Below, piece by piece: positions 54,959-58,942 of a stretch of DNA of 64,000 nucleotides (positions within the stretch are counted from its first letter, which is position 1; every line of letters starts with the position of its first letter). Below the pieces are notes generated by a model that was not told the origin of the DNA, did no database searches, and saw only the letters and a program-made list of their open reading frames with translations. Made by a program: the position numbers and the translations under genes. Location: assembly GCF_012222305.1 (NCBI RefSeq), contig NZ_CP035730.1:1639501-1703500 (forward strand). The letters are read 5' to 3'. The DNA is from Sulfolobus sp. S-194. Lineage in GTDB: Archaea; Thermoproteota; Thermoprotei_A; Sulfolobales; Sulfolobaceae.

Positions 54959-56140
54959 TTATTTTAAAACTCCGATAAACTCTGCAAATTTTATAGTAAA
55001 TATTGCTAATATCCCTAGGAAACCGGTGAAATAAAATGAGTATAACGGCGTTATTTGGAACAGCAAACCTACGATTGCATTATAAAATACTGAAAATATT
55101 CTCACAAAAGTACTAATTAGTGCAACTTGAGTCCCCCGGATTTCAGGCTTAGTAACGCTCTGTGCGACATTATAATCCACTATACTTTCCATAGCTACAA
55201 TTACCGTCCAAGCGTAAAATAATAAGAATAAAATATAAACATTAGTAAAGAGTGGAACTAGGAAAAATATGACGGAGTTGGAGAAGATTAAGATTGATAA
55301 GTTCTTAAAATTACTACGTTTACTTAAAATAACCGAGAACAGTAACGGTAAGAAAGCCATTATTAATGCGTATGATGAATATAACACACCTACAAATGTT
55401 AAGGGTAGTAGTAAGTCTTTTACGAAATAGATTGTTACGTAATATGTCTCTAGGCTTAAACCGGAAGAAAGAATTGAAACTAACAAATAGAGTAACAATT
55501 TCTTGTCTTCTTTAAGGTATTTAAAGCCTAATCTTAGAGATCTTTTCACTTCAACCTTGTTCTCGTCTTTCGGTAATTCAAGAAACCTTATAATACCGCT
55601 GATTCCGAAAAGAACCGCTATTATTGTGAAAAGTAGCGTAGAGACCGAGTGTTGTAACAAGTAGCCCCCTAACATAATCCCTATAGCTGCTAAGATGCTG
55701 GTTATGAGGGAGAAAACCCCAAAGGCCTTCCCTGCATTCGTATAATTTAGCATAAATCTATGCGCTCCTAAGGAATTAACTATTCTTATCACAGATTCAA
55801 AAATTACAAGAGAAATTATAAAAAGTAAGGGATTAAGCGTTCCCATCAAGAGGAACAAAGGTACTGCCATTAGTGCTGATAGAGTGACTGCATTCTTACT
55901 ACCTATTTTATCAACTATAGCACCTAATGGAATATTAAAAACTACGTAAAGGAAACTGATTATACTGTAAATTATACCAATTGTGAAGGTAGTAATGTCG
56001 AGGTTAGTCATAATTATAGGAAAATAGTATGTCAACAGTGAGTAAGCAAAGGTAGAAATCCCCAAAGATAATGAAAAATAGAGCAGTCTCTTATCTGCTA
56101 CAATGTAATAGATCTCTTTTAGTGTTTGCTTCAGACCCAT
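54959..56140 (-). CDS. MFS transporter, probable exporter of the peptide cluster
   Basis: 393 residues with about 12 hydrophobic segments. The loop between TM2 and TM3 carries the major facilitator motif GAIVDKIGSKNAV (~78-90). Starts at ATG 56140 with a GAGGTC Shine-Dalgarno 8 bases upstream, 18 bp after the radical SAM gene stop: same operon. Substrate unknown. Its place after a precursor-like peptide and a SPASM maturase suggests export of the modified peptide; drug or sugar transport is an alternative. Confidence 0.88.
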   Translation of the reverse strand: MGLKQTLKEIYYIVADKRLLYFSLSLGISTFAYSLLTYYFPIIMTNLDITTFTIGIIYSIISFLYVVFNIPLGAIVDKIGSKNAVTLSALMAVPLFLLMGTLNPLLFIISLVIFESVIRIVNSLGAHRFMLNYTNAGKAFGVFSLITSILAAIGIMLGGYLLQHSVSTLLFTIIAVLFGISGIIRFLELPKDENKVEVKRSLRLGFKYLKEDKKLLLYLLVSILSSGLSLETYYVTIYFVKDLLLPLTFVGVLYSSYALIMAFLPLLFSVILSKRSNFKNLSILIFSNSVIFFLVPLFTNVYILFLLFYAWTVIVAMESIVDYNVAQSVTKPEIRGTQVALISTFVRIFSVFYNAIVGLLFQITPLYSFYFTGFLGILAIFTIKFAEFIGVLK

Positions 56141-56158
56141 AACTAATAGACCTCTTCT

Positions 56159-57244
56159 TTAACTTTTTCCAATATAATCTTTAACTATTTGACATGAAGG
56201 GTCTGGAGCAAATAGGTCATTCTTAGTTATATATGCATTAAACCTAAAACCACCTCTACAAAGCTTCTTAACTTCACAACTCTTACAAGGCTCTCTAAGG
56301 AAAGATAGACTTCTTATTTTATTAAGCAAGAGATTGTTAAACCAAATTTCAACTAATGAGTCGTTTTTTATATTACCTAGCTTTGATAATGGGATAGATG
56401 TCGCCTCGGAACTAGGATAAATGTCACCGTTCGGAGCTATAACTAAACCTACTTCCCCCCAATTTGTAGGGATTGGTATCCTAGAATATAAAATGTCAGT
56501 ATCCACATAATTTTGTATAAAATTCTCCCCATAAATTTCTATGAGTCTCTTTAATTTTTCTTGAATTGTTCTTTCATCGTTAGGATCTGGTACTATGAAC
56601 TTTTGGTTTATATAACCATGACCTACCTTTATAACACTATGAATTTCAATCCAATCTAAGTTTGATTTATATGCAAGTTCCGCAATTTCTTCTAAGAAGT
56701 CCAAATAATAACTAGTCAAGACTATATTGCCTCCAACTTCCTTTACTCCAAAATCTTTAAATTTCTTTGCGATATTAATCTTCTTAGCTACTTCGTTCTT
56801 GATATGCATTATTGGGGATTGTATATTAAAGACGTATTTATGTGAAGTAAGGTTAATTCTAATCTTTTCTAGACCACTTTCTAGCAATTTTGTAATTCTA
56901 TCATCGGAAATAGGTTCTCCGCTACTTAATAACATGTGCCTTAGTTTTTGTCTTGTAACATATGACAAGATTTCCTCTAAATCGCTTCTTAACAACGGTT
57001 CTCCTCCAGTTATCACAACATCCATGATTCCCTCGTATTTTTCATCTAACCTTTTAATTTGATTAATTACTGATATCCACTCACTTAAGTTTAGCTCATT
57101 CATTTCTATTACAGATCTAGGTTTTGGAACTTTATCAGCTATATAAAATTTTAGATCTTTAGGTGGATTATGACAATAAATGCATTGCTGACTACATTTA
57201 TAAGTTAATTCTAATTCAATAAAAAAAGGTTTACGATTTATCAA
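56159..57244 (-). CDS. Radical SAM/SPASM-domain protein
   Basis: 361 residues. Radical SAM cluster CSQQCIYC (Cys17, 21, 24) after IELELTYK, then VVITGGEPLLRSDLEEIL (~95-110). The C-terminal SPASM domain has EPCKSCEVKKLCRGGFRF (Cys320, 323, 329) and DPSC (Cys351), seven or more cysteines for auxiliary clusters. This is the domain order of peptide maturases (PqqE, MftC, sactionine and cyclophane enzymes) and of heme-synthesis relatives (AhbD, NirJ). TTG start (57242-57244) with GGGTGA five bases upstream. A short peptide gene precedes it and a transporter follows. Confidence 0.9.
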   Translation of the reverse strand: MINRKPFFIELELTYKCSQQCIYCHNPPKDLKFYIADKVPKPRSVIEMNELNLSEWISVINQIKRLDEKYEGIMDVVITGGEPLLRSDLEEILSYVTRQKLRHMLLSSGEPISDDRITKLLESGLEKIRINLTSHKYVFNIQSPIMHIKNEVAKKINIAKKFKDFGVKEVGGNIVLTSYYLDFLEEIAELAYKSNLDWIEIHSVIKVGHGYINQKFIVPDPNDERTIQEKLKRLIEIYGENFIQNYVDTDILYSRIPIPTNWGEVGLVIAPNGDIYPSSEATSIPLSKLGNIKNDSLVEIWFNNLLLNKIRSLSFLREPCKSCEVKKLCRGGFRFNAYITKNDLFAPDPSCQIVKDYIGKS

Positions 57245-57281
57245 CTATTTCACCCTCACTATCTTAGAATATATTACAAGA

Positions 57282-57407
57282 TTACCAAGAAACCATGTAG
57301 TATGAAGGTGGATGTATTGTATAGTACATCATATATTTTCTTCGTTGCATTGCTATTTCGGTTTCAAACTTTTTTATAATATATTCTTTACTTACTTCTG
57401 TTTCCAA
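57282..57407 (-). CDS. Putative RiPP-type precursor peptide (41 aa)
   Basis: Short frame 37 bp upstream of the radical SAM gene, same strand. TTG start (57405-57407) with GGGTGA exactly five bases upstream, the same signal and spacing as the radical SAM gene. Residues 1-24 are charged (METEVSKEYIIKKFETEIAM, then QRRK), leader-like. Residues 25-41 are YMMYYTIHPPSYYMVSW: five Tyr, one Trp, two Pro, core-like. The frame is open 16 codons further upstream (possible TTG 57452), giving a 57-residue version. No homologue known to me; the call rests on context, size, start signal and composition. Confidence 0.5.
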   Translation of the reverse strand: METEVSKEYIIKKFETEIAMQRRKYMMYYTIHPPSYYMVSW

Positions 57408-57483
57408 TGTTTTCACCCGTATGATATAGATGTTTTGAACAGCTTTTTTCAACTCTCAATAATAATGAAAATTTTTAATACAA

Positions 57484-57548
57484 TTAGCACTTGTCGGAAA
57501 ATCCGTGCAGACCAAGGAGACCTTGAAAACTTTTTAAAATTAACCCGG
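57484..57548 (+). repeat. Direct repeat, left copy (IS family B end)
   Basis: About 63 bp running from TTAGCACTTGTCGGAAAATC through CTTGAAAACTTTTTAAAAT; repeated in the same orientation at 58661-58732 with roughly 80 percent identity by eye. Confidence 0.7.
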
Positions 57549-57559
57549 ATGAAATATGC

Positions 57560-58622
57560 ATGGATAAAAACTCAGAAAAACAAGCGTATTACAAAGCGTT
57601 GGAGAATGCAATAATCATAACACTTACCCCACTAGAGGGCTTAAGAAAAAGCACAGCAGCAAAACTAATACTAGGGGGAGTAATAGGTTGCACAGCATCA
57701 GAAATAGCACAAGAAATAAACATGGACTATGAGACAACACTAAAAAACTTGGACAAGATAGCAAACACTAGCTTAATAAAAGCAGTAAAACAAATAGTAA
57801 AAGACCACCCAGTACAACTAATAGTAGACGACACACATGACCATAAACAATACGCAAGAGCAATACCAGTATCGAGAAACTGCACACAAATATACTACTG
57901 CAGAGAACACAAGAGATACGAACCAGCAATACAACTACTAATAATAGTATTAAAGGACTTGAGAACAAACGAATCATACATAGTAGCAATAACACCCTAC
58001 ATACCGCAAAAGGTTGCAGAAATACTCAAAGAAAGGGGTGAAGAGGCAGAGTTCAAGACAAAAATCCAGTTATACCTAGAGTTACTACCGATACTCTTAA
58101 GCGAGTTCAATGTTGTTATTATCTCCTTAGACTCTTGGTATGTTAATTCTAAGACTCTTTTACCTAATACTGTGGGGGAACTCAAGTCCAGCGCGCGGGT
58201 CGTCGAGGGTGGCAGATCCGTGCCCGTTGGCGAGTTCCCCCAAGGGGAGTACCTAGTAGAATATCTAGGTGTTCCCATAAAGTTACTTGTAGTAGATGAT
58301 TATAAGGGTTTGGGTAAGAGGTACTTCTTCTCTACTAATGTAAATGATACTTCAGAGGACATAATAACTTCATGGGAGAGTCGTTGTTGGGGTTTTGATT
58401 AGGGAGTTAAAGGCGTTGGGGTTGGATAAGGGTTCTTTCCTCACTTGGGTTAGGAATAAGGGTTTCATAACCCTTAAAGCCCTCTCCCTCCTCTTCGTTC
58501 TCTTATTCAAATACTCCCTTGGTTTACACCTCGGTGCCAAGAGAATTGCTAGATTGATAAAAAATGTTTATCAAGAATCTGGAGGGATAAAGAAATTGTT
58601 TATGCGGAGGAGAAAAACATAA
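57560..58622 (+). pseudogene. Family B transposase with +1-type frameshift
   Basis: First part 57560-58402 (280 residues): VQLIVDDTHDHKQYARAI (first Asp), VVIISLDSWYVNSKTLLPN (second Asp). It ends WESRCWGFD-stop where family members would continue into the Glu helix. Second part 58395-58622 continues LIRELKALGLDKGSFLTWV in the +1 frame. Either one indel inactivated it or frameshifting joins the halves; the run GGGGTTTTGATT lies at the junction. Otherwise well preserved, so more recent than the family-A copies. Confidence 0.8.
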
Positions 58623-58660
58623 ACTGCTATACAATGTAAGTCGGTAATAATCAAAACAAA

Positions 58661-58836: not shown

Positions 58837-58848
58837 TAATTTAATTAG

Positions 58849-58942
<94 letters not shown>

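Follow-up and report, generated by a model that had tools for sequence, protein, structure and literature searches.

Three minus-strand genes of Sulfolobus sp. S-194 (genome G000), located in the 64,000-nucleotide stretch of DNA that was analysed in this work (the window), most likely constitute a new RiPP-type pathway which, as judged from sequence, would be PqqE-like in mechanism but would not be a PQQ pathway. We estimate at roughly three in four the probability that the 41-residue peptide encoded by the first gene is the substrate of the radical SAM enzyme encoded by the second. The genes, and the elements found upstream of them, are the following:

57282 to 57407, minus strand: candidate precursor peptide gene, TTG start, 41 amino acids, (M)ETEVSKEYIIKKFETEIAMQRRKYMMYYTIHPPSYYMVSW
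56159 to 57244, minus strand: PqqE-like radical SAM/SPASM enzyme gene, TTG start, 361 amino acids, Pfam PF04055 and PF13186
54959 to 56140, minus strand: putative MFS exporter gene, ATG start, 393 amino acids, PF07690 (98 bits)
57472 to 57480, minus strand: TATA-like box TATTAAAAA of the operon, assigned by eye
57485 to 58629, plus strand: ISC1217-type insertion sequence, PF04693 (442 bits), not part of the unit

The coordinates that the sequence-only reading had assigned to the three genes were all correct, as were the intergenic gaps of 37 bp (peptide to radical SAM gene) and 18 bp (radical SAM to MFS gene). A Shine-Dalgarno-like GGTGAAA lies before the TTG codons of both the peptide and the radical SAM genes, and GAGGT precedes the ATG of the MFS gene. 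Radical_SAM, SPASM and MFS_1 domains scored above the Pfam cut-off in the two larger proteins, confirming the third gene product as a transporter of the MFS; a Pfam search of the 41-residue peptide gave no domain match. The order peptide, radical SAM/SPASM enzyme, MFS protein was kept across the readable copies of the unit.

Each component of the unit is of a known kind; the novelty lies in how peptide and enzyme are paired, in the PPSYYM motif, in a PqqE-type enzyme that has lost Aux I and is not accompanied by an RRE, and in the group of hosts. Among Thermoproteota, radical SAM RiPPs have hardly been studied, and the unit offers a three-gene, thermostable and self-contained case, in which an exact conserved hexapeptide makes the precursor-enzyme pairing directly testable. 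No description of a Sulfolobales radical SAM RiPP was found in the literature searched, which was a partial collection. Genome mining is reported to have yielded many clusters in Thermoproteota (PMC12144867), so that this locus may already have been predicted automatically and left unnamed.

A conserved short peptide upstream of the enzyme

The proposal of a RiPP-type operon gained support from the genes upstream of the enzyme homologues: wherever this region survives a short ORF is present that carries PPSYYM, or in one case PPIYYM. This was so in six copies, with the ORF at about 150 bp or less from the enzyme gene. Orthologues of the peptide were identified in L056, L057, L058, L059 and L061, one of them in another family of the order (G054), and the retention of the short ORF at the same place in these five further copies implies that the frame at 57282-57407 is beyond chance. 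The peptides, as read upstream of the enzyme, are:

G000 and G016: ...RRKYMMYYTIHPPSYYMVSW
G024: ...RRKYMMYYTTKPPSYYMVSW
G030, copy a: ...RRKYMMYYTKNPPIYYMVS
G030, copy b: MTTQRRKYIIYNTKTPPSYYMMSA (the first ~17 residues are missing)
G054: MADRCIDIPPPCTPPSYYMTMKDLAIYVGLVKKKDREIGEKCVEETR

Their lengths range from 24 to 47 residues, the residues invariant in the alignment are R23, P33, P34, Y36, Y37 and M38, and the nucleotide differences favour synonymous sites (omega 0.4-0.6, from few sites). The upstream comparison was inapplicable in G017 and G029, where a remnant of the enzyme lies by a tRNA-Gly gene and the matching upstream region is gone, and in G021, where the region before the enzyme fragment is rearranged.

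The enzyme of G054 is only 37-39% identical, yet a PPSYYM-type ORF sits upstream there too; conservation of the motif at depth rests on this one diverged comparison, and the flanks of the G054 peptide could not be aligned with those of the Sulfolobaceae peptides. Given a six-frame background for PPxYYM of 1 in 728,784 residues, a chance match within 250 bp upstream of the G054 enzyme is expected at about 3 in 10,000 or less. At the DNA level, the pattern PP-Ser/Thr/Arg-YYM matched 19 times in 229 genomes, 5 times beside the enzyme family and 14 times elsewhere, the latter in unrelated frames and roughly as often as with the reversed pattern used as a control. PPxYY was found within 400 bp upstream of 3 out of 64 distinct radical SAM loci, all three of the enzyme family, and was absent from that interval in the remaining 61 loci collected. 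A search with the peptide across the order gave no copies besides those adjoining the enzyme, and its matches at E > 0.01 were mostly interrupted by stops or contained within long frames.

Two features initially ascribed to the peptide were not sustained by these comparisons. Tryptophan had been suggested, along with tyrosine, as a target for crosslinking; W41 is absent from three of the five distinct peptides (G030a, G030b and G054), implying that this terminal residue is not a conserved target. The plan of a charged leader followed by an aromatic C-terminal tail is not fixed either: the PPSYYM core closes the peptide in the Sulfolobaceae copies, whereas in G054 it lies near the N-terminus and is followed by a 28-residue charged extension. 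The location of the core near opposite ends of the peptide suggests recognition without a fixed N-terminal leader; alternatively, the charged part might act as a leader in one lineage and as a follower in the other.

The variable position of the motif also bears on a different role for the short ORF, that of a regulatory leader peptide on which ribosomes would stall at Pro-Pro-Ser-Tyr-Tyr, thereby controlling translation of a radical SAM enzyme and an MFS protein that act on another substrate, in drug resistance or in a small-molecule pathway. PP is a known ribosome-stalling context, the ORF lies just 5' of an MFS-containing operon, and it is the amino acids, and not the DNA alone, that are conserved. 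However, such control needs a fixed geometry, and the distance from the motif to the stop codon changes from 3 residues in G000 to 28 in G054, with the distance to the next gene varying as well. Furthermore, no Rfam regulatory element was detected at the site, and the enzyme belongs by tree and fold to a peptide-modifying lineage. We consider a leader peptide improbable and retain the short ORF as a candidate precursor.

Affiliation and cluster content of the enzyme

The CX3CX2C motif at C17/C21/C24 and the four-Cys SPASM tail (C320/C323/C329/C351) recognised in the sequence-only reading account for all seven cysteines of the enzyme, each of which could be placed as a cluster ligand. PqqE has two auxiliary clusters, whose ligands include cysteines for Aux I and the residue Asp319 for Aux II (PMC5715301); in the alignment to this protein, our enzyme has Ser and Phe at the Aux I cysteine positions, and Cys329 in place of the Aux II aspartate. 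With its seven cysteines and without the Aux I ligands, the enzyme is expected to hold no clusters other than the radical SAM cluster and Aux II. The same Aux II-only layout, CX2CX5C..C, was present in two heme-type proteins of G000, L002 (AhbC/NirJ1-like) and L003 (TIGR04053/AhbD-like); thus it is not unique to the enzyme, and it differs from that of PqqE.

This common layout is what would favour an enzyme of the heme or heme d1 type (AhbC, AhbD, NirJ), or another small-molecule SPASM protein, next to an incidental ORF. The phylogeny, from which a placement among AhbD/NirJ proteins could have emerged, instead grouped the enzyme with PqqE. In the maximum-likelihood tree (43 rows), the three family members formed one clade that was sister to four PqqE proteins with 100/98 support, apart from the L002 and L003 proteins of its own genome, although the program warned of long branches meeting within the clade. 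PqqE was likewise the best NCBIfam match, at 154.5 bits with the G000 enzyme and 179.3 bits with that of G054; the G000 enzyme scored 73.8 bits with NirJ2, 69.9 with AhbD and 58 with both AhbC and NirJ. Moreover, G000 already possesses the core L002/L003 pair elsewhere, and a conserved peptide adjoins the enzyme under study. A heme-type or similar function is, on these grounds, very improbable.

The closest solved structure by sequence was also PqqE (6c8v). The predicted model of the enzyme had a mean pLDDT of 83.9, superseding an earlier model built from four sequences (pLDDT 53); plasmid-record rows were left out of one alignment. PqqE was the top fold match of the model (Z 27.1, 295 residues, 2.9 A), followed by SuiB (Z 25.5), SkfB (Z 24.9), CteB and ChlB; PqqE, SuiB and SkfB are all RiPP maturases.

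The unit resembles PQQ biosynthesis (PqqA/PqqD/PqqE, TIGR02109, PDB 6c8v) in that a gene for a short, Tyr-containing peptide precedes one for a radical SAM/SPASM enzyme of that lineage, PqqE being the nearest protein by sequence, tree and fold. The unit differs from it in that both PqqE scores fall below the equivalog cut-off of 381.35 bits, the ligands of Aux I are lost and that of Aux II is changed, the conserved motif has no Glu-X3-Tyr, PqqB, PqqC and PqqD are missing, and an MFS exporter is added. None of these three proteins, nor a protease, was recognised among the neighbouring ORFs of the main copies, and no RRE domain, a feature that many but not all radical SAM RiPP systems possess, was found in the enzyme or the operon. 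One clear PqqD-like gene was located outside the operon in each of five genomes (in G000 it encodes 93 residues and lies between the SSB and MoeA genes, L136 3406-5789), and it is a core gene, present in 31/31 genomes of the family. Being universal and linked to housekeeping genes, it provides no evidence of a partnership with the enzyme, and we rejected it as a trans-acting RRE partner.

Mycofactocin biosynthesis also relies on a single SPASM enzyme, MftC, which acts on a Tyr-containing peptide. The enzyme of the window, however, reached 60.9 bits with the MftC model (TIGR03962), whose cut-off is 265, its peptide lacks a C-terminal Val-Tyr and its operon lacks an MftB-like RRE. The streptide enzyme SuiB and the sactisynthases SkfB and CteB rank second to fourth by fold (Z 25.5 to 22); they have an RRE at the N-terminus and additional ligands for auxiliary clusters, whereas the peptide described here has no conserved Lys-Trp. 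The Sulfolobaceae peptides contain no Cys, unlike the cores of sactipeptides and ranthipeptides. In archaea, the Htur_1727 family, a candidate haloarchaeal RiPP, likewise places a small protein beside a SPASM-type protein (TIGR04347), but it is an acidic 110-residue protein without PPSYYM, and its partner branches far away in the tree.

Proposed reaction and product

In the mechanism that we propose, the enzyme would bind its peptide directly, no PqqD-like partner being encoded in the operon, and SAM would be reduced at the C17/C21/C24 cluster to yield a 5'-deoxyadenosyl radical. This radical would set off an oxidation within the conserved Ser-Tyr-Tyr-Met segment, and the electron would pass to Aux II, the only auxiliary cluster. 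The leading candidate for the bond formed is a cross-link, either C-C or C-O, to the ring of a Tyr, an assignment that we hold as doubtful, at odds clearly below even. The modified peptide would be trimmed by host proteases, and the MFS protein would export a small product that would act outside the cell as an antimicrobial, metal-binding or redox-active compound. The fuller reading, of a new RiPP family of hot-acid Thermoproteota carried between genera by mobile elements, in which a PqqE-derived, RRE-free enzyme with a single auxiliary cluster recognises its peptide on either side of the PPSYYM core and turns this core into an exported cofactor, metallophore or antimicrobial, is tentative and falls a little short of an even chance.

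The doubt about a PqqE-like bond arises because the conserved motif offers no equivalent of the glutamate of PqqA. This difference leaves room for a RiPP with another chemistry, a possibility that overlaps with the mechanism above and comprises a three-residue cyclophane (Tyr-Tyr-Met), tyramine excision or epimerisation. Tyr-Tyr-Met formally fits the aromatic-X-X pattern of the triceptides, and radical SAM RiPP enzymes are known to vary widely (PMC8326336); on the other hand, the enzyme scores best with PqqE, and not with a cyclophane, splicease or epimerase family. We regard such a chemistry as quite possible, if somewhat less than evenly so. The loss of Aux I within a PqqE-type lineage bears on the purpose of the auxiliary clusters and on leader-free recognition.

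As for export, the gene behind that of the radical SAM enzyme encodes an MFS protein in G054, G017 and G029 too. The transporters of G000 and G054 are only ~26% identical, and the best NCBIfam match of the window protein, TIGR00900, was weak.

Distribution, mobility and decay of the unit

A whole-genome search of 98 relatives identified an enzyme 100% identical in G016, which belongs to another genus, and identities of 95% in G024, 92% in copy a of G030 and about 60-70% in the decayed copy b of G030 and in a fragment in G021, and 39% in G054; disrupted relatives were found in G017 and G029. A class-wide profile search of 229 genomes added no family members, and phylum-wide searches retrieved only more distant SPASM proteins, implying that the family is small and patchy. 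Degenerate-pattern scans of genome and viral contigs gave no relatives, and tblastn against plasmids returned only PqqE, TIGR04053 and TIGR04347-type proteins. In G030 the whole unit occurs twice, copy b (L059 4100-5900) being decayed.

The coding DNA of peptide, enzyme and MFS protein showed 0 differences in 2,385 bases between G000 and G016, while the HMG-CoA synthase-like core protein of the window is 76% identical in G016, which indicates that the unit moved very recently. An apparent small-molecule trait is thus moving at present among hot-spring archaea. The intactness of the unit had been attributed to selection or to recent acquisition; the identity of the G000 and G016 copies favours recent transfer, whereas long selection is disfavoured by the pseudogenes among the other copies. 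In the window, the unit is flanked by tRNA-Leu and tRNA-Met genes, and in G003, a genome of the same genus, both tRNA flanks are present and the unit is absent. A tyrosine-integrase gene adjoins it in G024, where it is beside a tRNA gene, and in G030. Synonymous divergence between G000 and G030a (L058) was 0.45 for the MFS gene and 0.13 for that of the enzyme, a more than 3-fold gap which suggests that the parts of the module were exchanged and reassorted.

Decay was seen in G024, G030b, G021, G017 and G029. In G024 (L057 4099-4170) the enzyme gene has lost one T near its start and bears a TGA at the third Cys of CX3CX2C, so it looks dead, a likely pseudogene. A tRNA-Sec call by ARAGORN at window positions 58848-58940 (minus strand), made when introns are disallowed, was rejected; the gene is that of a tRNA-Met(CAT) and contains an intron of 8 bases, and it gives no support to a selenocysteine reading of that TGA.

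The unit was described as lying among decayed IS elements, and an ISC1217-type element indeed abuts the peptide promoter. Its transposase is split over two frames (57560-58402 and 58395-58622), it is bordered by the target duplication TACAAT (57479-57484 and 58630-58635), and the sequence at this site is uninterrupted in G016. The string TATTAAAA also occurs in L056, L057 and L058, some 65 bp upstream of the start of the peptide. Since the element disrupts the upstream flank some 5 bp from the TATA-like box, expression of the window copy may be altered. This copy could even be silent already, a passenger cut off from its upstream regulatory sequence and heading to decay, as is common in its relatives; against this, none of the three frames is interrupted, they match those of G016 exactly, and the TATA-like box is still there. 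We consider silencing rather unlikely; it is in any case compatible with a RiPP-type function for the family.

Other genes were observed close to the unit in two of the relatives. In G016 (L056 6375-9060), a 286-residue protein, a QueC-like protein and a membrane-like protein of 362 residues without a Pfam match form a second possible small-molecule gene group. In G024, ~1.8 kb from the unit (L057 1345-2004, minus strand), a gene encodes a 219-residue protein that had no Pfam match and has a cysteine-rich hydrophobic C-terminal domain, which we take to resemble the halocin C8-like bacteriocins.
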